A stretch of DNA of 45,437 bases. Source: a virus. Below, piece by piece: positions 1-44,970 of this stretch (positions within the stretch are counted from its first letter, which is position 1; every line of letters starts with the position of its first letter). The notes under the pieces are model-generated. The model made no database searches. It was not told the origin of the DNA and worked only from the letters and a program-made list of their open reading frames with translations. The stretch is taken from IMG/VR virus record IMGVR_UViG_3300037339_000063, positions 1-45,437 of that record; one strand, given 5' to 3'. A program made the translations under genes and the position numbers.

Positions 1-78
1 GAGAATTCAGAAGCTTACTATAACAAGCTCAAGAAAAGCGCAAGCCGCAGCATAATCAAAGGCAGCAGCGCAGTATAA
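1..78 (+). CDS. C-terminal end of an upstream protein (possibly portal), 5' truncated
   Basis: The frame is open from base 1 and ends at a TAA (76-78) that shares its last A with the ATG of the next gene. Only 25 residues are visible. They are rich in Lys, Ser and Ala, and resemble the flexible C-terminus of a structural protein. The position, upstream of scaffold and major capsid protein, is where podoviruses usually place the portal gene, so portal is a positional guess only. No motif supports it. Confidence 0.5.
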   Translation, partial: ENSEAYYNKLKKSASRSIIKGSSAV

Positions 79-230
79 TGCCCCTTGAAGATGTTCGATA
101 CAGGGTCAAAGACGGTGAAGACGGACGGAAAGTTCGTCTCGCATTTGACATTAAGACCAACGAAGTAGTAGAAGCAGTTGCTATGCCGCCAAAGAAACTT
201 AGCGCAAAAGCTAAAGCAAAGAAGAAATAG
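78..230 (+). CDS. Small basic protein of the left cassette (50 aa)
   Basis: The ATG overlaps the preceding stop (TAATG), and the TAG at 228-230 overlaps the GTG of the next gene (TAGTG), so both junctions point to translational coupling. The first ~35 residues are mixed-charge with alternating hydrophobics (MPLEDVRYRV...). The last 15 are almost pure Lys/Ala (KKLSAKAKAKKK). I do not recognise a family. The Lys/Ala tail recurs in neighbouring proteins and would suit nucleic-acid or negatively charged surface binding, which is inference. Confidence 0.6.
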   Translation: MPLEDVRYRVKDGEDGRKVRLAFDIKTNEVVEAVAMPPKKLSAKAKAKKK

Positions 231-538
231 TGAGCATTCTCGGAAGCGCAACCGGTATATTAAAGTCTAAGACAGGCGCGAATCAAGGGCGCAGCGTAGA
301 GAGTATGCCTGCCACCCTTAGTTCGTTGCAAACTACTCCAGGTACCCCGGGGGCGGCACAAACTACATCATCTTCAGCGCAACGAGCACAAAAGAGAATG
401 AAAGAAGCTCGCTTAGCTTTGAAAGCAAAGAAACAACACGCTCACGAAGTGAAAGTTGCTACTCAGGAAGCTGAGAGTAGGGATAGTAAAAGTGATTCAA
501 CCTCTGGCCGAAGGGCCGCATTAGAAAAGGCGACATAA
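230..538 (+). CDS. Low-complexity Ser/Thr/Lys-rich protein (102 aa)
   Basis: A GTG start at 230 overlaps the previous TAG, and the TAA at 536-538 overlaps the ATG of the next gene. Residues 1-50 are rich in Ser, Thr, Gly, Ala and Gln with almost no large hydrophobics. Residues 50-75 form a charged, probably helical stretch (RMKEARLALKAKKQHAHE). The C-terminus is Ser/Lys/Asp-rich. The composition suggests an intrinsically disordered protein. No family is recognised. It belongs to the coupled cassette between the upstream structural gene and the scaffold. Confidence 0.6.
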   Translation: MSILGSATGILKSKTGANQGRSVESMPATLSSLQTTPGTPGAAQTTSSSAQRAQKRMKEARLALKAKKQHAHEVKVATQEAESRDSKSDSTSGRRAALEKAT

Positions 539-645
539 TGGCAAATCGTAAAATATCTTCGAAACCGTCTACTTTAGAGACCATTAACCGAGGGCCAACT
601 CTAAAAGCCAAAGCCCACGGCGCGCTGAAAAAGGCCGGAAGGTAA
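538..645 (+). CDS. Tiny basic protein (35 aa)
   Basis: The ATG overlaps the TAA of the preceding gene, and its own TAA (643-645) overlaps the ATG of the following one. The product begins MANRKISSKPS and ends in a Lys/Ala-rich run (LKAKAHGALKKAGR). It has no acidic residue apart from one Glu and no recognisable domain. Double stop/start overlap on both sides is the main support for it being a real gene. Confidence 0.5.
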   Translation: MANRKISSKPSTLETINRGPTLKAKAHGALKKAGR

Positions 646-815
646 TGAAGGACGCATCGGATCTCAGGTCAAAGGCCAAGGATCGACGCCGTAATCGGCG
701 TGACAACGATAAGGCTAGCAGAGACGAAGATCGTTCTAAGTTAAAGAACAAGAAAGCTTACAAACGCCACGAGAAGGCTGAGTCTAAAGACGAAGCTGAT
801 AGTGAGATGGACTAA
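645..815 (+). CDS. Highly charged small protein (56 aa)
   Basis: The ATG at 645 overlaps the previous TAA, and the TAA at 813-815 lies three bases before the next ATG. More than half of the residues are Lys, Arg, Asp or Glu. The order is basic (SKAKDRRRNRRDNDK), then mixed, then an acidic C-terminus ending SEMD. No hydrophobic core is evident, so it is probably disordered or a solitary charged helix. Function is unknown. Confidence 0.55.
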   Translation: MKDASDLRSKAKDRRRNRRDNDKASRDEDRSKLKNKKAYKRHEKAESKDEADSEMD

Positions 816-818
816 ATA

Positions 819-1070
819 ATGCCTACATTAACAGAAGAGAGACAAGCACAAGAGCGGCTAGACGAAGAGGCGCGCAAAGTTCGGCGTGCCAAAAAGAACG
901 TGCCTCCCCCGGCCGAAGCGCCATCGGGTCAAGGTACGTTTCAACAGATTCTTCCGCGTTCGCCAAACCCGAAAGACCCTTCTCTTAGGCACAAGGGTAG
1001 CGCCGGACAGAAGATTCAAAGTTTCGGCCGACAAGGCAACAGCCCTTCTAAGTTCTCAGATCAGGAATAG
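819..1070 (+). CDS. Small charged/Pro-rich protein (83 aa)
   Basis: The start is the ATG three bases after the previous stop. Residues 1-28 form a predicted charged helix (EERQAQERLDEEARKVRRAK). After that comes a Pro/Gly/Ser-rich segment with FQQILPRSPNPKDP and KIQSFGRQGNSPSKFS. No known family is recognised. The overlapping frame from 886 is less likely because it lacks a coupled start and would overlap the next gene. It is one member of the disordered cassette. Confidence 0.55.
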   Translation: MPTLTEERQAQERLDEEARKVRRAKKNVPPPAEAPSGQGTFQQILPRSPNPKDPSLRHKGSAGQKIQSFGRQGNSPSKFSDQE

Positions 1071-1072
1071 TA

Positions 1073-1264
1073 ATGCCTCATAACCTGAAAGATAAATTCG
1101 CTAGCAAAGTGAAGCCCGACATAAAGCTAAAAGAAGCCGAGTTCAAAAGGAAGTTCGGGCGGGAACCGGCAACCGATTCTGAAATCGATTCAGTCTACGG
1201 TGCAGGCGCTGCAACGAAGGCGCTAGACGAAGCCTACGAGCGAATGGGGCGTAAGAAGAACTAA
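1073..1264 (+). CDS. Small charged helical protein (63 aa)
   Basis: The ATG lies two bases after the previous TAG and is preceded by AGGA at a 7-base spacing. The TAA overlaps the next ATG. The product has a basic N-terminus (HNLKDKFASKVKPDIKLKEAEFKRKFGREP) followed by a helical segment with ALDEAYERMGRKK. It looks more foldable than its neighbours, with two amphipathic helices. No family is recognised. Confidence 0.6.
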   Translation: MPHNLKDKFASKVKPDIKLKEAEFKRKFGREPATDSEIDSVYGAGAATKALDEAYERMGRKKN

Positions 1265-1578
1265 TGCCTTCCAAGGAAGAGATAAAGGGCATTCTTGATA
1301 AGCACAAGCACTTGAACTTCGTTCAGCGTGTTCTGAAGCCAGAAGGTCAGCAGACCATCAAGAATCCAGACGGTAGCGAATCTTCCCACAGCATGGCATC
1401 CGGCGATGGCAACGTATTTCCTACCGTCATAAAAGACAAGAGAAACAACCGCATGTATCGTCTTCCAGGCAAAGCCGCAGCGAAATATGCCGCCGCAACA
1501 GGCGAGCGAATCAGTTTCAAGACAGACAAAGAAGCAACAGCTTTCGGTAAAGAATACAAGAAGGTATGGGATAAATAA
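1264..1578 (+). CDS. Small conserved-looking phage domain protein (104 aa)
   Basis: The ATG overlaps the upstream TAA and the TAA overlaps the ATG of the 583-aa protein. Unlike its disordered neighbours this one looks globular. It runs HKHLNFVQRVLKPEGQQTI, then DGSESSHSMASGD, VFPTVI, a short Leu/Pro segment, AAKYAAATGERISFKT and ATAFGKEYKKVW. That order (an N-x-VQR-V start, a DG-S-T/S-H-x-MA motif, a VFPT strand, then GE-x-I-x-F and A-x-x-F-x-x-x-YK) matches a small module I recall from larger phage virion proteins, sometimes next to peptidoglycan hydrolases. The recollection is from pattern only. Its function is not known to me. Confidence 0.7.
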   Translation: MPSKEEIKGILDKHKHLNFVQRVLKPEGQQTIKNPDGSESSHSMASGDGNVFPTVIKDKRNNRMYRLPGKAAAKYAAATGERISFKTDKEATAFGKEYKKVWDK

Positions 1579-3329
1579 TGGCTACTGATCCTAAAGATAA
1601 CAAGGGTGGCGACCTAGCTGAGATCCGCGATCTACAGGGTCGTAAGGTTCCCAAGCCGACCGTAACCCAGCGCCGCAACAAGTGGACCAAAGAGGCAGAC
1701 ACTCAGGCTCTTGCACGTCAGGCACGAGAAGACGTAGATAAAACCCGTCTGGTAACCCACTCTCGGCAACTGTTTCAAGAAAAAGCAGCGAATAGCACCC
1801 CGGCACCATGGGCTAAAGAAGGTCCAGGCGGACGTGATTATAAACAAGAACGGGCCACGTCGAGGTTGACTGAACCAGACTTGCCGAAACGCAAGGCGAC
1901 GGCCAAGCTCTCCGAGAGAGCAGCCGAAGTACGAAACAAGAGGCACGCTTTCGGTCCTGGCTTACCTTTCCGAGCCGGTGACCCTAATCGCGCTAAGGCC
2001 GATCAGACACGACTCGAACACGACCGAAAAGCCGCTAACGCTTGGGCATCACAGGAACAAGCAGACATTAAATCTGGAGCCAAGAAGGTTCCACTAACCA
2101 GTAGAGAGAAAGAAATGGCAGACAAAGATCTCGCAGCAGTAAAGACAACCAACCTTTCCGATAGGGCCAAGGCGTCTAAGAATGAGAACTCACGCCAAGT
2201 CCCACGCGGTCGAGCGGGTAGTCCCCGAGCCGGAGGCGAAGGCTCAGGCGGCCAAGCCTGGAGTGCCAAAACAGATCCTTACGTTTCAGCAGCTACATCT
2301 GGAGCTGAGCCGAGTTACCACAAAGGTCCAAAGACCGCTCTCGTTCGAGACCTTGCACCGGGCGTATCGAGAGACCGCACCGCCGCCAACCTCAGAGCAG
2401 ATCGAACGTCCGGCGTTGATAAACAACTATCCTTAGGGGACAAGCATCAAAGAAAATTTATGAGCCTTATGAATGCCGCCGAGACAGGTGAGGCTCAGCA
2501 GTTCGTAGGTCAGATGAAGCCAGGCGTTGCTGCACGAACAGACGCGCACTCTATTGAAAGCTGGGCTAAGAGAGCAGACGACCACCAGGATCGTCAGATG
2601 TCCTATCCTACGAAACCAGGCGACACCTGGGGCCATACCAAGACCTACGTGAAGGATGAAGCCCCAACTACTAAAGGTAGTTATGCTAAACAGCCTGCAA
2701 TACGGCAAGTAACCCGTTCACCGGAATCACAAGCTAGAATTGAAGGTATAGTAGGTAGTGCAAGCAGTTCTATGCCAGGCAAAGATCTAGGCGAAGCGGC
2801 CCCCGGCGCATCCAAGGCCCAGGGTCTACGCGCCCGCGCTATCGCTCGAAGCGTAATGGAGAATCGCAGCGAGACAACAGATGCAGCTGCTAAGAAGGCT
2901 CGCGCTGATAAAGCATTCTCAGAGATGACCCAAGAGAAGGCACCTAATCAGTCCAAGGTAAACGCAGGCGGCCAACGATTCGCTCCTCGTATGACAGGCG
3001 ATCCTCGATTGCCCGACACTGGACAAACCAAGAGCAACATCGCTCGCCCCAACAAAGACCTAGGACGTATCTCCACTCGCCTGATCCGGGAAGCCGGAAC
3101 ACCAAGCTCGACAATCTCCGAGGCGGGAGGCGGTATTCTTAAGGCAGCGGCCATGAAAGCTCGCGGTCAGACCCCGCCCGTAGTTCGCAGACCTGGAAAG
3201 GGTAAGGGCGGCGGAGCCGGTGGAGCCCCTGACTTGATCGAAGACTTCGGTAGTCATTCAGGCTCTGCCCAAAACAGAGCTTGGGATGCAGTAGCAAGAG
3301 ACATCAAGAAAAACTTGAAGATAGATTAA
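1578..3329 (+). CDS. Large disordered basic protein (583 aa)
   Basis: The start is coupled (TAATG) to the 104-aa gene. The whole protein is low complexity: Lys, Arg, Ala, Gly, Ser, Asp and Gln dominate, long hydrophobic runs are absent, and short charged helices are separated by Gly/Pro/Ser linkers. Near the C-terminus (about 535-550) is a Gly/Lys-rich patch (RRPGKGKGGGAGGAPD), followed by DLIEDFGSHSGSAQNRAWDAVARDIKK, which could be a terminal amphipathic helix. No enzymatic motif is seen. Size and position would fit a packaged internal or accessory virion protein, but that is inference. The long open frame with coupled ends makes it a real gene. Confidence 0.8.
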   Translation: MATDPKDNKGGDLAEIRDLQGRKVPKPTVTQRRNKWTKEADTQALARQAREDVDKTRLVTHSRQLFQEKAANSTPAPWAKEGPGGRDYKQERATSRLTEPDLPKRKATAKLSERAAEVRNKRHAFGPGLPFRAGDPNRAKADQTRLEHDRKAANAWASQEQADIKSGAKKVPLTSREKEMADKDLAAVKTTNLSDRAKASKNENSRQVPRGRAGSPRAGGEGSGGQAWSAKTDPYVSAATSGAEPSYHKGPKTALVRDLAPGVSRDRTAANLRADRTSGVDKQLSLGDKHQRKFMSLMNAAETGEAQQFVGQMKPGVAARTDAHSIESWAKRADDHQDRQMSYPTKPGDTWGHTKTYVKDEAPTTKGSYAKQPAIRQVTRSPESQARIEGIVGSASSSMPGKDLGEAAPGASKAQGLRARAIARSVMENRSETTDAAAKKARADKAFSEMTQEKAPNQSKVNAGGQRFAPRMTGDPRLPDTGQTKSNIARPNKDLGRISTRLIREAGTPSSTISEAGGGILKAAAMKARGQTPPVVRRPGKGKGGGAGGAPDLIEDFGSHSGSAQNRAWDAVARDIKKNLKID

Positions 3330-3340
3330 AGGATTAAGTA

Positions 3341-3535
3341 ATGAGCGAAATGGACGAGATGCGATCGATGAATAAGAAGCCAATTGCCGAGGCGAACTCT
3401 ACCAAGACTCTCTCCGGCGGTGCGGCAGCTAAATCAAATCGATACGCAGAGAACAAGGCCCGACAAACTACGCTCCACGCCAAAGCACAGGCCCGGTCAA
3501 AAGCCGCAGCGGCGAGACGCGCAGGAGAACGATAA
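3341..3535 (+). CDS. Small Lys/Ala-rich protein, first copy of a tandem pair (64 aa)
   Basis: An AAGGA lies 8 bases before the ATG, and the TAA overlaps the ATG of the next gene. The first 30 residues (MSEMDEMRSMNKKPIAEA...) are nearly identical to the N-terminus of the adjacent 70-aa protein: 27 of 30 match, while the DNA differs mostly at third positions. The rest is Ala/Lys/Arg-rich and divergent. The synonymous differences imply an old duplication kept under protein-level selection. Function is unknown. Confidence 0.7.
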   Translation: MSEMDEMRSMNKKPIAEANSTKTLSGGAAAKSNRYAENKARQTTLHAKAQARSKAAAARRAGER

Positions 3536-3747
3536 TGAGTGAAATGGACGAGATGCGATCACAGAACAAGAAGCCAATAGCTGAGGCTAAGTCTACAAAG
3601 ACCCTATCAGGTGGAGCAGCCCCTAAAGGACCAACAGCACACCAGCTAAAAACGATGGCCGATGCAAAGACCCGCGCCGAGAATGCGTTCCGACCTTTAA
3701 GAGCCAAAGCCGAAGCGGCAGCTAAGGCCAGAGCAGGCACAAAGTAA
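3535..3747 (+). CDS. Small Lys/Ala-rich protein, second copy of a tandem pair (70 aa)
   Basis: The ATG overlaps the previous stop and has AGGAG 7 bases upstream. The conserved N-terminus contains MSEMDEMRS, NKKPIAEA and STKTLSGGAA, shared with the preceding protein. The C-terminal half is a predicted Ala/Lys/Arg helix (DAKTRAENAFRPLRAKAEAA). The conserved N-terminal part could be a docking or packaging signal and the C-terminal part a variable cargo or nucleic-acid-binding tail; this is inference. Confidence 0.7.
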   Translation: MSEMDEMRSQNKKPIAEAKSTKTLSGGAAPKGPTAHQLKTMADAKTRAENAFRPLRAKAEAAAKARAGTK

Positions 3748-4025
3748 TGGACGACGCTGAACAAGACGCCCCCCTGCCCGGTCCTCGCGGCCAACGGATG
3801 AGCCAACTTGGCATCCTTACAAAGGGCCAAAAGAAGAAGCCTGTTATCCCAGATGTTAGCACTAACGCCGAGGGTAAGCCGAATCCCGGGGATGTTGAAA
3901 AGGCTAAAGCAGCCGCCTCCCTAGGCGATAAGGCCGAAGCTCGTAAAGCGGCCATGTTAAAGACAGGTGGCGCAAATATTGTGCCAGAGGCTGACCCTAT
4001 GAAAAAGAGCCAAGCCCCACGATAA
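3747..4025 (+). CDS. Small disordered protein ending the left cassette (92 aa)
   Basis: The ATG overlaps the upstream TAA, and this is the last gene before the hairpin/terminator at 4028-4102. The N-terminus is acidic and Pro-rich (MDDAEQDAPLPGPRGQRMS). The middle is Lys/Pro-rich (KGQKKKPVIPDV), then comes an Ala/Lys helix (VEKAKAAASLGDKAEARKAAM). A faint resemblance to the tandem pair (a KKP motif followed by a Ser/Thr/Gly segment) is visible but not strong enough to claim homology. Confidence 0.65.
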   Translation: MDDAEQDAPLPGPRGQRMSQLGILTKGQKKKPVIPDVSTNAEGKPNPGDVEKAKAAASLGDKAEARKAAMLKTGGANIVPEADPMKKSQAPR

Positions 4026-4059: not shown

Positions 4060-4061
4060 CA

Positions 4062-4102
4062 CCCCGTAACAGTGGTTCTCCCCTGCTGTTACGGGGTTTT
4101 TT
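4062..4102 (+). terminator. Intrinsic terminator after the small-protein cassette
   Basis: CCCCGTAACAG (4062-4072) pairs perfectly with CTGTTACGGGG (4086-4096), an 11-bp stem, followed directly by six T residues. This is a textbook Rho-independent terminator. It would separate expression of the cassette from that of scaffold and capsid. Confidence 0.85.
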
Positions 4103-4249: not shown

Positions 4250-5170
4250 ATGGGCGCAAGCATAGAAGATATCACGGCAAAGTTAGAGGCCGCAGCCGCA
4301 GATAAGACGACGGAAACGCCAACCGAAGTCGAAACGGATACAGAAGTCGTAGCAACGGACGACGCTGCCAAGGGTACTAAAAAGACCGGGGCGCAGGATA
4401 GAATCCAAGAACTAGTTGCCGCGCGTAAAGACGCGGAACGTAAGTACGAGGAACTATCAGCAAAGTTTAGTGATAAAGAATCCGAACTAAGCAAATTGAT
4501 CGACATGGTTCAGGACCGCGAGCAGGATGCTCGTGTAGTGGCCAAGATCAACGAACTGCACTCAGATCCTAAGTTCCGAGACATTGTAGAGACACTTGAT
4601 AAGGCAATCCGGGGCATTGAAGTAGAAGTTAAGGCGACGGAAAAGGCCGCAGATGCTGCACCACAACCGAACGTAGACCTTCTTAAGAATGTTCAGGCTG
4701 AGCTAGACCGAACTCGCGAAGAGGCGGCCTTCACAGCCAGGGATCAGAAGTCAGACTTGCTCCTAATGAAGTCAGACCTCGTGCTAGAGAAGCTGTTCGA
4801 ACAACTACCGGACGCAGAGTACACGGCGGAAGATCGGAAGATCCTCAATTCTGCATTGGCAGATATGATCGACTGGGACTCAATCGAAGCAACACCGGCC
4901 ACGTTGGAAGGTGAAGTAGCGAAGGGCTTTCAGAAGGCAGTGGATTGGTACGGTAATCCGAAGGGCAAAATCGCTACCGAAGCTACAGGTAATAATAAAA
5001 ATGCTACAGATGCCAAGTCTAAGGCCACTGTGGATCTATCAAAGCTCGATCTAGGCAAGATGGAAAATGTTCAAGTCGGGGGCAAAGACGTTCAACGTCC
5101 AGCCATTACTGACGACGACTTCTCCCAGCTCCTAGCAGAAGAGTTGAGACGATCGCGCGGAGGCCGCTAA
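4250..5170 (+). CDS. Capsid scaffolding protein (306 aa)
   Basis: The start has AAAGGAG about 6 bases upstream. The product is very acidic at the N-terminus (Ala/Thr/Glu/Asp, residues 1-45) and then forms a long charged coiled coil (about 50-110, RKDAERKYEELSAKFSDKES). A second helical region lies at about 140-220, and a short Arg-rich C-terminus (EELRRSRGGR) ends the protein. Size, composition, the basic C-terminal tail and the place directly before the major capsid gene are typical of podovirus scaffolds (T7 gp9 and P22 gp8 classes), which chaperone procapsid assembly and leave before or during packaging. No sequence-specific motif exists for the family. Confidence 0.8.
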   Translation: MGASIEDITAKLEAAAADKTTETPTEVETDTEVVATDDAAKGTKKTGAQDRIQELVAARKDAERKYEELSAKFSDKESELSKLIDMVQDREQDARVVAKINELHSDPKFRDIVETLDKAIRGIEVEVKATEKAADAAPQPNVDLLKNVQAELDRTREEAAFTARDQKSDLLLMKSDLVLEKLFEQLPDAEYTAEDRKILNSALADMIDWDSIEATPATLEGEVAKGFQKAVDWYGNPKGKIATEATGNNKNATDAKSKATVDLSKLDLGKMENVQVGGKDVQRPAITDDDFSQLLAEELRRSRGGR

Positions 5171-5206
5171 GGCGCTCAGGCACTGATAGTTAAGGACAAT
5201 TAAACT

Positions 5207-6415
5207 ATGCAGACATTCGCAACACTAGGCGATATGCTCCTACGGCGTTATGTGGTTGACTTCATCGGTCAGATGCAGCAGCTATCGACGCCAATTTATT
5301 CGATGCTTAAAGAGGACAGCCGCTTTACTCCATCGGGTGATGGCGCATACTTCGCAGTACGTCTCGACGGTAACGAGTCGGGTGGCGGTTGGCGCGGTAC
5401 AGACGACAACTCCCTCCCATCAGCAGGCAACGAGCGCGTCAAGCAGCACCGGGTACGCCCCAAGAAGTACTACCACGTAGTAAGCTTCTCGGGTCTAGCC
5501 GAGGCAGTTTCACGTCGCGGTGGCGAAGAGGCTTTCGCAAGCGCAATTACAGACGCAATTTCTGCGGCTGTTAAGCGTGCAGGCGCAAACTTCGAGGTCA
5601 CGTTCCTTCGCGGTGACGGTACAGGCCGCCTCACGAACTGCAACGGTGCATCCACAACTACTTCGGTAGCAGTAGATGACGCCCGCCCGTTCCGTGTCGG
5701 CCAGGTTGTTGTTTTCCTAAACAACACAACCGGTCTCAAGGTCGCAGGACCAGTCAGCGTTACAGGCCGCAGCGTTTCCGGTGGCACAATCACCGTAAGC
5801 TCAGCAGTCACAACGTCTGATGACGACGGCGTTTACATTTCGGGCGAGCAGTCAGAGGCCGCAGCTCCTTCGGAAGTAACAGCCCTTGGTCTTCCTGCTA
5901 TCATCAACAACAGCGGTACGATCTACAACCTTTCGCGGTCAACGTACCCCATCCTACAGTCGCAGGTAATTGCAGCTTCGAGCGCGTCGCTCGATGAGGC
6001 CCTCCTACGACGCCTACGCAAGCGGCTCCTAACAGAGACCGACACTGGTTCGATGGACGGCTTTGCCTTCATCAGCAACTACGACCAGTTCGATCGCTAC
6101 ACAGAGATCGCCCTTCCATTCCGCCGGTTTAACGACATGCGGTTGGAGCTAGGTGCGCAGCAAGAGCTAACGACCTTCGAGGGTCGGCCTTGGTACATTT
6201 CGTGGGCCTCAAAGCCAGACGAAGTATACATGATGCGCATGGATGCCATCGTTCGCGGTGTGGTTCGCCCACTCAGCATCGATGAGCGCGTAAACATGGC
6301 ATGGCAGCCAGGTCAGGATGCTTTCACAGTACTCATGAAGTACTACGGTGAGAACATCGCACGGCTTGTCAACCAGACAGCGAAGATCACAGGACTATCA
6401 GTACCAACGTACTAA
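5207..6415 (+). CDS. Major capsid protein, HK97-like fold (402 aa)
   Basis: AAGGA precedes the ATG. The product follows the scaffold gene and precedes a strong terminator. Residues 1-60 contain an N-terminal helix and the PIYSMLKEDSRF segment. An E-loop-like stretch with GGGWRGTDDNSLPSAG lies near 55-75. A spine-helix-like region (EEAFASAITDAISAAVKRAG) is at about 105-125. A beta-rich insertion at about 145-215 (PFRVGQVVVFLNN, then SGGTITVSSAVTTSD) looks like a small Ig-like or beta-barrel insertion. The C-terminal part (PWYISWASKPDEVYMMR through NQTAKITGL) matches the closing strands of many podovirus and siphovirus capsid proteins. Confidence 0.88.
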   Translation: MQTFATLGDMLLRRYVVDFIGQMQQLSTPIYSMLKEDSRFTPSGDGAYFAVRLDGNESGGGWRGTDDNSLPSAGNERVKQHRVRPKKYYHVVSFSGLAEAVSRRGGEEAFASAITDAISAAVKRAGANFEVTFLRGDGTGRLTNCNGASTTTSVAVDDARPFRVGQVVVFLNNTTGLKVAGPVSVTGRSVSGGTITVSSAVTTSDDDGVYISGEQSEAAAPSEVTALGLPAIINNSGTIYNLSRSTYPILQSQVIAASSASLDEALLRRLRKRLLTETDTGSMDGFAFISNYDQFDRYTEIALPFRRFNDMRLELGAQQELTTFEGRPWYISWASKPDEVYMMRMDAIVRGVVRPLSIDERVNMAWQPGQDAFTVLMKYYGENIARLVNQTAKITGLSVPTY

Positions 6416-8813: not shown

Positions 8814-9500
8814 ATGCCTAATACACTCACGCAGTTCCGGACTCAGATCCGGCGCTATCTAAAAGAGACGAACGCAAGCACCAGCTACTGGGACGCCAAC
8901 TTCGTCGATCAACTCTTCAACGCTCAGTACCGCAAGCGCGCTACTCAGCTAATCATGGCTTTCGAGGGCTGGTTTGTTAACGTCTCCGTAAGAGACATTA
9001 CAGCCGACACCGCTCGATACGCCTTCCCTGATGGCTTCCTACGTCTTCAGAAAATCGAACTCGTCCGCACTGACGGTACAACTGTGCCCATCCACCGCCA
9101 CGAGCGCCACGATTACGCTAACCCAGCAGATTCGTCAGGCTCCTCAGGTGGAGACAGCTACCTACCGAAGTATCGAATGCAGGGCAACGGCTTCATCCTA
9201 GAGCCTACTCCAACGCAGACCGTCACGAACGGACTTCAGCTAGAGTGGGCCGGTGTTCCGGCCTTACTATCAGCCGGTGGCGATCAGCTACACCCTAGCT
9301 TCCCTGAAATCTTCGAGGAGCTACTCGTAATCGATACGGTTGTTAACGCTTTCGATGCCGAAGGTGTACAAGAGTCCGGACTCGTTCGTTCCCTTCTACG
9401 CCAACGTGGCGAGATGGAAGAGAACTTCGAGCGGTTCATTGAAACCCGTACAGTAGCTCGCCAGGAGATCCAGCCCTTCATTGTCTACGAAGACGCGTAA
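8814..9500 (+). CDS. Head-tail adaptor / tail tubular protein A-like (228 aa)
   Basis: The ATG directly follows the previous TAA, and the TAA overlaps the next ATG. The N-terminus (TLTQFRTQIRRYLKET), the helix FVDQLFNAQYRKRATQLI, the F-P-DGFLRLQKIEL element and the C-terminal helices (SFPEIFEELLVIDTVVNAFD, SLLRQRGEMEENFERFI) match the mixed alpha/beta build of T7 gp11 and P22 gp4-class connector proteins, which join the portal to the tail. Size is right for gp11 (about 200 residues). The assignment is by architecture and position. Confidence 0.68.
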   Translation: MPNTLTQFRTQIRRYLKETNASTSYWDANFVDQLFNAQYRKRATQLIMAFEGWFVNVSVRDITADTARYAFPDGFLRLQKIELVRTDGTTVPIHRHERHDYANPADSSGSSGGDSYLPKYRMQGNGFILEPTPTQTVTNGLQLEWAGVPALLSAGGDQLHPSFPEIFEELLVIDTVVNAFDAEGVQESGLVRSLLRQRGEMEENFERFIETRTVARQEIQPFIVYEDA

Positions 9501-41678: not shown

Positions 41679-42122
41679 TTACCTGTCTGCTTTCATTGAT
41701 TGATTTTCTCGGTATGCCAACGCACGCAAGCACTCGCTCTTGTGTGTCAACGCGGTCATGGACCAGCGAAGAGTCGCTGCGTCCTTCTCTGCCTGTAGTA
41801 GCGCCTGCACTACGGTCTGATATTCTTCATTGATTGTGATGGCGTGTCCCACCTTTGCTTCGGTCGCCTTGTCACCTAGTCTAGCGAATTCCGAACGAAT
41901 TTGCGAGTCAAGCACGGCGGCCAGCCTATCCTTCTCTGCGTCGAGGCGTCCCACCCGAAGTCTTGCTTCGGCTTCAAGCGTTCCGTGCTCGAAGATGATG
42001 CGCCCCATGTTGCAAAGCTCCCGGTCAAGCTCGCTCTCGTCAATGCTAAACGCCTCTGGGTTCAGCTTGACTTCGAGGAACTGTCCGTCCCTTTCAATGT
42101 ATACTGTACGTTCGTCGCTCAT
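41679..42122 (-). CDS. Coiled-coil protein, putative UvsY-like recombination mediator (147 aa)
   Basis: The ATG overlaps the polymerase stop (TAATG). After a short beta segment (RTVYIERDGQFLEVKLNPEA) the protein is helical (EAEARLRVGRLDAEKDRLAA, then ATEAKVGHAITINEEYQTVV, then AEKDAATLRWSMTALTHKSE). Size (T4 UvsY is 137 residues), helix layout with a middle Thr/Ile segment, and the place between polymerase, SSB and recombinase suggest a UvsY-like loader of recombinase on SSB-coated DNA. Sequence similarity alone is weak. Confidence 0.6.
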   Translation of the reverse strand: MSDERTVYIERDGQFLEVKLNPEAFSIDESELDRELCNMGRIIFEHGTLEAEARLRVGRLDAEKDRLAAVLDSQIRSEFARLGDKATEAKVGHAITINEEYQTVVQALLQAEKDAATLRWSMTALTHKSECLRALAYRENQSMKADR

Positions 42123-44740
42123 TAGTGTGCCGCCCTCTCTGCTTCTGCCCAGGTATTACCCCATCCACTATTGATAGGTAGAACCATTCCACCTAGCTCA
42201 GGGATTGGGCGCTGTGCAACCTTCTTGAATTCAACATCGAACCATTCCACGTACTCCTTGCGCACCCCGTAGGAGATGGAATCGTGTACGCTACAGATTA
42301 GTCTAGCAACATCTGGCCCTAATTGCAAGCCCTCTAGACCCTCACGCATCATGCTCATCGTGCGAAACGAAACTGCTCCGGCGGGGCTTTGAATCGATAC
42401 GTTAGTTGCTGATCGCTCCGCTTCGGCACGGCGATACTGTTCCTTATGATTCAGGTCTGGTATCAGGATCTCTCGCCCGAAGATCGTCACTACCTTACTA
42501 CCACGACCGCGAGCAATGTCCGGGGTCAAGCTGAGGTACTCGTCGATCTTTGGGTAGCGCATCCGATAGTTGCGCACGAGTCCGTAGGCCATCTCTTCAC
42601 CGATAAGCTTGCGCTCCTTGGTCTTAATGTCCTCGTACTCTAGTTTGGCTAGGCTCGCCCCCTCTGAACCGTAGATGATACCGAAGTTCATGGGCTTACC
42701 TATAGCGCCTCGGTTATATTCGCTGATTTCCGAAGGGTCGCACATGAGGGCAGCCGCCGCCGTGAAACGATGTACGTCACCCAAGGGATCTGAGAGGACT
42801 TGTAGGAGTTCTTCCTCTCCTGTAAGCTGAGCGAACACGCGCAGTTCGATCTGTGAGTAGTCCGCGTAGTAGTAGACAAATCCCTCTTCTTCATCGATCA
42901 TATCTCTCATGACCAGCTTGCCAGCCTTCACGTCGTCCTCTTTGGACTTCGGGATTTGGTGCAGGAAGCTACAGGTTAGGCGAGCCGAAATCGAACCGGC
43001 CATGTTGAAGTTGTACCGGATACGACCATCGGAACCTACTTCGTTCATAGCGTTGTCAACATAGGTGCTCTTGAACTTCTGCCTGTTGCGGTACTTAATG
43101 ATCTTCCTGGCTAGTGGAACGTCTTCCGGGTCTAGTTTCAGGAGGGTGTTCTTGTTGGTCGAGTACCCCTTGACAGCCTTGACGTTGAGGATCTCCTCCC
43201 CGAAACCTAGTTCCCGCAGTGCCTTGGCTACCTGATCGTGGCTGTTAGGGTTGAAGTCCGGGTTGGTGACAGTCCGGCAGTCTACCAGGATCTCTTCCAT
43301 CTCATTGTCGAAGCTGACCCCAAGGGACTTGACGTTATCAATGTTAAGGTGGTTGCCGTTGTACTCTGCCTCGGACAGCGTGTACAAGAGAGGCATCGAC
43401 TCCTCGGTGTAGAGCTTGATGAGGTTAGCCTTGCGCACAATGTCTGGGTAGTACGTGTCAAGCAGGCGATAGGTTAGCTCGGCGTCCGTTGCACCGTATG
43501 GCCACAGGATCTCGTCCGGTATGTTATCATATGTCTTAATAAGCTTTCGACCATGCCCTACGATATCTCGGACTGGACCCTCGTAGTTGCCACAGAAGAA
43601 CTCCCCATCAGCTAGCTCCTTGAGGCCGTGCGGAGGGGTAACGTCTAGTAGGTGGTGCATTATCTGGGTATCCCAGAGCCATCCCTTGACCCTGATGCCA
43701 CAGTGCCGCCTCAGGACGTTCATATCGTACTTGATGTTGTGGGCGCACTTGGCGATCGTCTCGTCCTCGAAAATCTCCTTGAGCTTGTCGTTTATCTCGG
43801 CTCGCTTGCCGTTGATCCATGTAGGCTTGAGTTTGAAGCCGAACTCTACTGTTGGATCGTGCTTATAGAAAGGAATAACCCATGTCTTTCCGATGCCACA
43901 CGAGATTTGCAGCAGAATACACGGTGAGGACATGAAATTGAGGTCCGGAGACTCCGTATCAAAGGCAAAGACACCGTGTAATTTTATAAGCTCCGTAACC
44001 TTGGCTAATTCCTCAATAGAATCAACTACTTGGAACGTTGCGTTATAAAACTTATTATCGATGATCTTTCCGTCAGCCAATAATGATCGAGCCTTGTTCA
44101 AGTCCTCCTGCATTAGGCTCTTGATCTTGACGTTACCCGTGGCAAGGAACTGCTTCGGGTGATAGACTGGCATAACGCGGAACTCTAGCTCCTCACTCCA
44201 ATGAGGGTACTTCATGTCGAACGCGGTGCCGTGGAGCTGGGTGATGCCTCCCTCGCCGTGGAGGTTGAATATCTTGAGGGCCTCTGAGCCCAGGAGGATT
44301 ACTAGGCGAGGCTCGTACTTGAATAGCTCGTACTCTAGGTGCTGGCGGCAAACTGCGTACTCACTAGCTGCCACTTTCCTGTTTGGTGGCGCACACTTAG
44401 CGTGACAAGTGATATAAGTTCTGTCCGGATCGAACTCCGAGTTAGTCAGAAGCCCTATCATTATCTCTCGTGCGTCGCCCCACAACGGGAAGCCTGCCTT
44501 GTCGCCGTCTCGGGCGGGGAAGTCGCTCACCACAAAGGTATCGAAGTTGCGTGGCTTGCTCGGGTCTCCCCGGCGACCATCAATAAGCTCGCGGAGCGAG
44601 CAACCGCTAAGCTGGGCGTTGCGGGTGTACTTCCAACCCTTCTCGCTAGTAATGTTAGGGAGCTTGCACAACGGCTTGCCGCTCTCGGCTGGGTCGCAGT
44701 TATACCATTCTTTATAGAGCGGTAGTTCTAGTTCTTCCAT
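42122..44740 (-). CDS. Family A DNA polymerase with N-terminal uracil-DNA glycosylase-like domain (872 aa)
   Basis: The ATG at 44740 is chosen; a GTG at 44752 would overlap the previous gene more. Residues ~15-220 resemble family 4 UDG: GDKAGFPLWGDAREIMIGLL, YITCHAKCAPPNRKVAASEY with Cys spacing as in the 4Fe-4S enzymes, RLVILLGSEALKIF and MPVYHPKQFLATG. The catalytic GEAPG motif is replaced by SDFPARDGD. A 3'-5' exonuclease follows (AFDTESPD, CAHNIKYDMN, YGATDAELTYRLLD). Polymerase motifs: A ADYSQIELR, B RGAIGKPMNFGIIYG, C SVHDSISYG, with Ser where Glu is usual. No 5' nuclease domain is present. It is the probable replicative polymerase. Confidence 0.92.
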   Translation of the reverse strand: MEELELPLYKEWYNCDPAESGKPLCKLPNITSEKGWKYTRNAQLSGCSLRELIDGRRGDPSKPRNFDTFVVSDFPARDGDKAGFPLWGDAREIMIGLLTNSEFDPDRTYITCHAKCAPPNRKVAASEYAVCRQHLEYELFKYEPRLVILLGSEALKIFNLHGEGGITQLHGTAFDMKYPHWSEELEFRVMPVYHPKQFLATGNVKIKSLMQEDLNKARSLLADGKIIDNKFYNATFQVVDSIEELAKVTELIKLHGVFAFDTESPDLNFMSSPCILLQISCGIGKTWVIPFYKHDPTVEFGFKLKPTWINGKRAEINDKLKEIFEDETIAKCAHNIKYDMNVLRRHCGIRVKGWLWDTQIMHHLLDVTPPHGLKELADGEFFCGNYEGPVRDIVGHGRKLIKTYDNIPDEILWPYGATDAELTYRLLDTYYPDIVRKANLIKLYTEESMPLLYTLSEAEYNGNHLNIDNVKSLGVSFDNEMEEILVDCRTVTNPDFNPNSHDQVAKALRELGFGEEILNVKAVKGYSTNKNTLLKLDPEDVPLARKIIKYRNRQKFKSTYVDNAMNEVGSDGRIRYNFNMAGSISARLTCSFLHQIPKSKEDDVKAGKLVMRDMIDEEEGFVYYYADYSQIELRVFAQLTGEEELLQVLSDPLGDVHRFTAAAALMCDPSEISEYNRGAIGKPMNFGIIYGSEGASLAKLEYEDIKTKERKLIGEEMAYGLVRNYRMRYPKIDEYLSLTPDIARGRGSKVVTIFGREILIPDLNHKEQYRRAEAERSATNVSIQSPAGAVSFRTMSMMREGLEGLQLGPDVARLICSVHDSISYGVRKEYVEWFDVEFKKVAQRPIPELGGMVLPINSGWGNTWAEAERAAH

Positions 44741-44970
44741 TGACACTCGCACCCCGCTGTTGGCAGGCTCTCGTCTAGGATAACGTCTACCCCGAAGTAA
44801 GTCACAGGTCGGCGCTCAGCTGTAGGCACTAAAGTCTTCATGATCGTCTCTGAGACCCTGATTAGCTGAGGGATATGCCTATACGTCCTGGTAAAGCGTA
44901 GGTACATGTTACCTATGAGCACCTCGGCAGTAGCCTTGGCACGCGCTACCATAATCTCTTCATCGGTCAT
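44728..44970 (-). CDS. Small unknown protein between primase and polymerase genes (80 aa)
   Basis: The ATG overlaps the primase stop (ATGA), and the end overlaps the polymerase start region. The N-terminal two-thirds is helical (EEIMVARAKATAEVLIGNMY, then TYRHIPQLIRVSETIMKTLV). The end is a short beta part (PVTYFGVDVILDESLP) with two Cys (CECQWKN). No family is recognised. Tight coupling supports a replication-related role. Confidence 0.7.
   Translation of the reverse strand: MTDEEIMVARAKATAEVLIGNMYLRFTRTYRHIPQLIRVSETIMKTLVPTAERRPVTYFGVDVILDESLPTAGCECQWKN

Follow-up and report, generated by a model that had tools for sequence, protein, structure and literature searches.

To our knowledge, the choice of cargo by phages is largely unexplained outside the T4-like phages, P1 and a few jumbo phages. 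In T4, the internal proteins IPI, IPII, IPIII and Alt form a diverse set whose only common element is a short sequence for targeting (PMC3012670, PMC9026906). This capsid targeting sequence is N-terminal, about ten residues long, and is cleaved off by gp21 (PMC9026906, PMC7411985). In P1, several head proteins, the Dar proteins (DarA, DarB, DdrA, DdrB, Hdf and Ulx), are loaded in morphogenesis and delivered against host defence; DarB carries an N-terminal signal, and a consensus was not found among the Dar proteins (PMC9024508). The ejection proteins gp7, gp16 and gp20 of P22 are virion proteins injected with the DNA of a phage having the P22-type portal (PMC8402733). Here we describe a block of small genes which seems to be comparable to these systems in several respects.

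The DNA analysed, hereafter the window, comprises the 45,437 bases of an IMG/VR virus record. No near match to its first 24 kb was found among 50,697 phage records, and Rfam gave no match anywhere in it. Eleven complete ORFs (g1–g11) are arranged in a row at 78–4025 (Table 1), as stated in the original prediction. The tight coupling that had been described is also seen: the stop and start codons overlap by one base at seven of the ten junctions (six TAATG and one TAGTG), and the remaining gaps are 3, 2 and 11 bases.

Table 1. Features of the cassette and its neighbours in the window (positions are those of the window; identities and pN/pS refer to the counterpart named, or to L035 where none is named)
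Feature	Position	Strand	Remarks
Truncated upstream ORF, 3' end	1..76	+	Open frame; C-terminus resembles that of a ~400-aa L002 cassette protein (by inspection)
g1, 50 aa	78..230	+	Three-strand domain and tail; LSAKA at 198-212; family of 10 in 9 loci
g2, 102 aa	230..538	+	LALKA at 413-427; L035 counterpart, 46% identity
g3, 35 aa	538..645	+	LKAKA at 601-615; L035 positional counterpart, 37% identity
g4, 56 aa	645..815	+	LRSKA at 663-677; L035 counterpart, 66% identity, pN/pS 0.26
g5, 83 aa	819..1070	+	Near-match LRHKG at 984-998; L035 counterpart, 66% identity, pN/pS 0.34
g6, 63 aa	1073..1264	+	Near-match LKDKF at 1085-1099; counterparts in L035 (76%) and L002 (63%)
g7, 104 aa	1264..1578	+	Relative of a small protein in N4-like Pseudomonas phages; LPGKA at 1462-1476, possibly a chance match
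g8, 583 aa	1578..3329	+	Disordered; four motif matches (1908, 1962, 2154, 2826); counterparts in L035 (58%) and L002 (44%)
g9, 64 aa	3341..3535	+	N-terminus common to g10; LHAKA at 3473-3487
g10, 70 aa	3535..3747	+	N-terminus common to g9; LRAKA at 3697-3711
g11, 92 aa	3747..4025	+	LGDKA at 3921-3935; final gene of block; pN/pS 0.37
Intrinsic terminator closing the cassette	4061..4097	+	15 pairs, then TTTTTT; loop TCTCC
Scaffold-like gene, 306 aa	4250..5170	+	PHROG head scaffolding, weak, E 0.0065; location ahead of the capsid gene is conserved
Major capsid protein, 402 aa	5207..6415	+	PHROG major head protein, E 1e-16; anchor for finding relatives

The block had been said to start at 78, between a structural gene and the scaffold. 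Its start was not borne out: in relatives, the small-gene block reaches back to the portal gene. The ORF at 1–76 ends in ENSEAYYNKLKKSASRSIIKGSSAV-stop, which by inspection resembles the C-terminus NELTYNALKKVASRNVIRGGS of a 397-aa cassette protein of the related locus L002. This means that the block of the window seems to extend upstream of 78. With respect to the flanks, the scaffold-like gene on the 3' side has a weak PHROG match. The "structural gene" label of the upstream neighbour is unproven. Because of the terminator behind g11, the scaffold and capsid genes probably belong to a separate unit. Comparable hairpins are located 120–225 bases 5' of the scaffold gene in many relatives, with CTCC(C) in the loop; their stems are paired, and the stem sequences are largely unrelated. 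This loop could pair with a Shine-Dalgarno-like GGAG.

The portal of L002 matches the Pfam family P22_portal (E 1e-12), and SU10_adaptor matches the window at 8814–9500 (E 9e-13). The P22-type portal, the separate scaffold, the capsid and the SU10-type adaptor are found in this order, as in a head module of the P22/SU10 type. From the portals of the relatives and the adaptor of the window, the group is therefore probably podovirus-like. In addition, the minus strand of the window encodes a family A DNA polymerase at 42122–44752, the N-terminal part of which has a uracil-DNA glycosylase domain.

With the capsid protein as a query, 46 viral loci aligning to it and one locus in a bacterial assembly were retrieved. 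The comparison set consisted of 42 loci (41 and the window), and several contigs of the relatives are 119–121 kb long. In every locus with a portal match, the order was portal, 2.1–8.5 kb of small genes, scaffold and capsid; in other words, the same gene-order block, for which a search in relatives had been suggested, was found between the P22-type portal and the scaffold and capsid genes. The 477 ORFs predicted in the portal–scaffold intervals fall into 250 BLAST clusters, which indicates fast turnover; the ORFs were called mechanically, and a part of the short singletons will not be real genes.

Among the relatives with a full block, L035 is the nearest. It has counterparts for ten of the eleven window genes, g9 and g10 sharing one, and has no g7. 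Duplications, losses and altered order are observed between the two blocks: g1 has two counterparts, and the MSEMDEMR protein is located elsewhere. The counterparts of g1–g6, g8, g9/g10 and g11 show 37–76% identity and pN/pS values of 0.26–0.67 at near-saturated synonymous sites; the g3 pair is under the BLAST cut-off and was matched by position and aligned directly. These values mean that the frames are selected. The absence of conserved frames in relatives had been named as an observation that would speak against the block; such frames are present, and they are under purifying selection in the L035 pairs. A split or frameshifted known protein was likewise rejected, since the separate frames are kept under selection in relatives. 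The corresponding pN/pS values were 0.14 for the portal, about 0.2 for the scaffold and 0.06–0.12 for the capsid, and selection on the cassette is thus looser.

It should be mentioned that the scaffold and capsid genes (4250–6415) show nearly no synonymous change against L035, with a pS of about 0.2 versus 0.7 elsewhere. This might be caused by recent exchange or by strong codon constraint. A recombination boundary at the scaffold was considered and dropped, because synonymous sites in the portal and in much of the genome have reached the same saturation as those of the cassette; the scaffold and capsid pair, with its low divergence, is the exception.

All eleven cassette proteins of the window are of low hydrophobicity and lie on the disordered side of the charge-hydropathy plot, in accordance with the earlier description of them as mostly disordered. 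Among the relatives, 77% of the small cassette proteins are on this side, compared with 20% of the small ORFs downstream of the capsid gene. The description does not hold wholly for g1, for which AlphaFold2 gave a three-strand sheet followed by a short helix at the motif described below, at low confidence. The pI values of the eleven proteins are 9.5–11.8, and the net charge is +0.04 to +0.23 per residue. From their common N-terminus, g9 and g10 look like tandem duplicates, and g11 is the last cassette gene in 6 loci.

Among five window cassette proteins compared with PHROG, there was a single match (E 0.053), and few known families were recognised when 106 cassette proteins of the group were scanned with Pfam and PHROG. 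A tblastn search against the phage records gave nothing useful except for g7; low-complexity filtering limits both kinds of search. The homologue of g7 is gp26 of the Pseudomonas phage Littlefix (41% identity), which is encoded beside an N4 gp68-like gene and does not have the motif; the match in g7 may thus be due to chance. The AlphaFold2 model of g7 was poor (mean pLDDT 60), and a partial match to g7 is located 3' of the capsid gene in L027. This arrangement of genes was not encountered in a search of open-access text, a result that speaks only weakly for its being new. The statement that no described family matches stands at the level of families, but not at the level of kind, since the T4 internal proteins are comparable.

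The recurrence of LxxKA, which the original prediction had not noticed, was spotted in relatives, and an enumeration was used to avoid judgement by eye. All gapped triples over residue classes were counted in 151 mutually non-similar families (one representative per cluster, 30–160 aa) and compared with shuffled proteins. The top triple was Leu-x-x-[Lys/Arg]-Ala, present in 54 of the 151 families versus 15.1 expected. It was again at the top in the 126 families outside the window clade (40 versus 11 expected; z 8.7, the best z of the shuffled sets being 6.6) and in the 25 families of the window clade (14 versus 2 expected; z 9.3 for L..KA, shuffled best 6.2). Thus, diverse proteins are joined by one short conserved sequence, as in T4, and this result was replicated in two lineage sets. 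The extended form [GSP].L..[KR]A was at 28 versus 2.9 expected. The form L[RKSA].[KR]A, first noticed in one set of loci, was found in 18 of the 85 families without members there (3.2 expected; maximum of 11 in 300 shuffles).

L..[KR]A is enriched 4.0-fold in small cassette proteins and 1.0-fold in small control ORFs, namely those downstream of the capsid gene and the early genes of the window; in larger proteins, control and cassette alike, it reaches 1.5 of expectation. In the cassettes, I..[KR]A, V..[KR]A, L.[KR]A, L...[KR]A, L..A[KR] and L..[DE]A were at 0.5–1.0 of expectation. The motif is therefore specific for Leu and for the spacing. In the window, 9 of the 11 proteins contain it, versus 1.6 expected and a maximum of 7 in 20,000 shuffles, and g5 and g6 have the near-matches. 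Among orthologues, the motif residues are conserved more than the same residues elsewhere: 0.69 versus 0.52 for L, 0.78 versus 0.58 for K/R, and 0.66 versus 0.47 for A. Furthermore, on a 121-kb contig, nine small genes have the strict motif, and seven of these are located at 34.1–41.4 kb, a stretch that starts with the gene immediately preceding the portal and runs through the end of the cassette. Maps of the whole contigs G001 and G003 showed that nearly all strict matches among small genes are in the late structural region.

In a sister lineage (L019, L020, L024, L033, L037–L043, L047 and L048), the cassette is of the same kind, but the motif is lacking or does not clearly exceed chance; the contig map of G004, from this lineage, showed strict matches without clear enrichment. 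A full-width profile trained on one half of the families predicted the other half weakly (16 of 85 at p<=0.05 versus 4.2 expected), and a profile built from other clades did not single out the window proteins. The full-width position weight matrix was therefore set aside as weak, and our claim is restricted to the core pattern because longer profiles do not transfer. A terminal tag was rejected, as the motif was near the termini in 21 cases versus 21.0 expected. Mimicry of the scaffold C-terminus was also rejected: scaffolds end in a conserved acidic-then-basic sequence without L..[KR]A there. Since distant paralogues may go unrecognised in BLAST clustering, the families should not be treated as fully independent. 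If the clusters were remote paralogues, retention or shuffling of a module, and not convergence, would account for the motif; it would still be the sole shared element.

Further motif-bearing small genes are located downstream of the capsid gene in L027 and L014. Those of L027, 6.2–8.1 kb past the start of the capsid gene, contain TGRLRERA, AGRLREKA and PGRLRRRA and are preceded by the partial relative of g7. The far clades are also enriched in another short pattern, T-I-G (11 families versus 1.5), seen in the cassettes of L008, L013, L031 and others.

A cREC-like protein is encoded in the portal–scaffold interval of 26 loci (L004, L005, L008, L010–L016, L030 and others), but not in the window or its closest full relatives. 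The members tested match the PF20274 profile (E 4e-16 for L030, and two members matching), and the alignment of the family has conserved acidic positions, F.D and DL, corresponding to the acidic pair of the receiver fold. The PF20274 domain is predicted to process cyclic ADP-ribose-type compounds or cyclic phosphates; for 2H domains, which are functionally similar to cREC, packaging was inferred from fusion to MuF and portal domains (PMC9503650). The tested members thus share the Pfam domain with the cREC of jumbo phages, which differs in having been described in RNA-repair and NAD-related neighbourhoods and not in the portal–scaffold interval (PMC7824862, PMC9503650). The presence of cREC suggests that some cargo may counter nucleotide-based immunity. 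Because only 3 of the 26 proteins have the motif, they could be packaged otherwise or simply be expressed late. HNH/endonuclease VII genes likewise occur in the interval, and the cassettes of L003, L029 and L032 have a gene of ~340 aa with an RRXRR match (PF14239; IscB-like).

These features led us to consider the block as a head cargo module of a P22/SU10-type phage, in which the shared motif would dock the proteins into the procapsid and from which they would probably be ejected into the host. We judge the chances of this reading to be about even. A late, translation-coupled operon between the portal and the scaffold would yield many small, flexible and basic proteins, many of them sharing the short linear motif [GSP]-x-L-[RKSA]-x-[KR]-A. 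The i, i+3, i+4 spacing and the Leu and Ala residues are suited to a single turn of a helix that has a basic side; the motif probably folds into such a turn, in which Leu and Ala point the same way and Lys/Arg lies next to them. It probably docks unrelated proteins on one common partner in the procapsid, that is, the scaffold, the portal or the inner coat surface. Docking during procapsid growth would thus enclose the cargo before DNA entry. The cargo would exit with the DNA at infection, and individual proteins may counter host functions or aid DNA entry. The wider claim, that L-x-x-[KR]-A is an uncleaved internal capsid-loading code by which a large uncultured phage group packs dozens of interchangeable disordered proteins, is offered more tentatively.

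The location between the portal and the scaffold, the docking-like motif and the late operon would also be expected of assembly aids, in which the motif binds the scaffold or coat in head building, for example in size determination or placement of the portal, without delivery to the host. Packaging and assembly roles overlap in T4, since mutants of IPIII affect head shape (PMC9026906). Such factors are, however, usually conserved, whereas most cassette proteins are lineage-specific while the scaffold and coat are similar, and the cREC-like enzymes in the same interval resemble effectors. We regard assembly aids as unlikely. The original prediction had put forward packaged internal proteins, DNA-condensing peptides or injected host-takeover proteins. 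Packaged or injected proteins seem to fit best with the position, disorder, basicity, turnover and motif; condensing peptides fit less well. If Lys/Arg helices neutralised the packaged DNA, L..KA would be just the commonest short basic helix, and the high pI and the richness in Lys, Arg and Ala would be explained; lysines of T4 internal proteins do touch packaged DNA (PMC3012670). The net charge per residue is nevertheless modest and not protamine-like, and the motif requires Leu and Ala with a set spacing. A generic basic helix would not explain why no enrichment is seen when Leu is replaced by Ile or Val or when the spacing is shifted, and the proteins of the motif-poor lineage are, by eye, at least as basic. 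This explanation is improbable in our estimate.

Another possibility is that the interval is a hot spot of gene acquisition, the products being unpackaged late proteins for host takeover or counter-defence and the motif a duplication relic of common ancestry. Its lineage-specific content and the HNH/endonuclease VII, RRXRR and cREC genes are in line with this, as are the N-terminus shared by g9 and g10 and the remote paralogy that the clusters may miss. On the other hand, the motif residues are kept by selection to a greater degree than the same residues elsewhere, the motif occurs at different positions in families of different folds and lengths, and late proteins solely for host takeover would arrive too late. 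We therefore consider a hot spot of this kind quite improbable.

Regarded as head cargo, the cassette resembles the T4 internal proteins, which are likewise small, diverse and fast-changing, have mainly a short sequence in common, and are encoded by a phage whose heads are built on a scaffold core. The cassette motif differs in being internal, variable in position, different in sequence and apparently uncleaved. Packaging is established for T4, whereas for the cassette we infer it from the genes. The S78 prohead protease gave no match in the window and seven related records, some of which are fragments, in a search whose controls worked; in the S77 protease search, the controls gave no match. 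Because the motif does not have the N-terminal position, for which it was tested, the cassette was not classed as a T4-type member. If packaging is confirmed, the cassette would work like the T4 system. The Dar proteins share with the proposed cargo that several proteins are placed in the head, but they are larger, and P1, a myophage, possesses a prohead protease; P1 gave no match in the phage-wide tblastn search with several cassette proteins. The P22 ejection proteins are three specific conduit-forming proteins, to which similarity of the cassette was not found. Cassette proteins of ~300–485 aa near the portal in L002 and L035 are possible equivalents of them.

A short motif common to dozens of dissimilar families in one genomic slot provides a testable handle on cargo loading. 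If the proposed cargo role is true, many unannotated small phage genes would become predicted virion cargo, and the motif might serve as a laboratory tool for putting reporter proteins into phage heads. The portal–scaffold interval would then be a swappable cargo bay, including candidate cREC enzymes that degrade immune signals.
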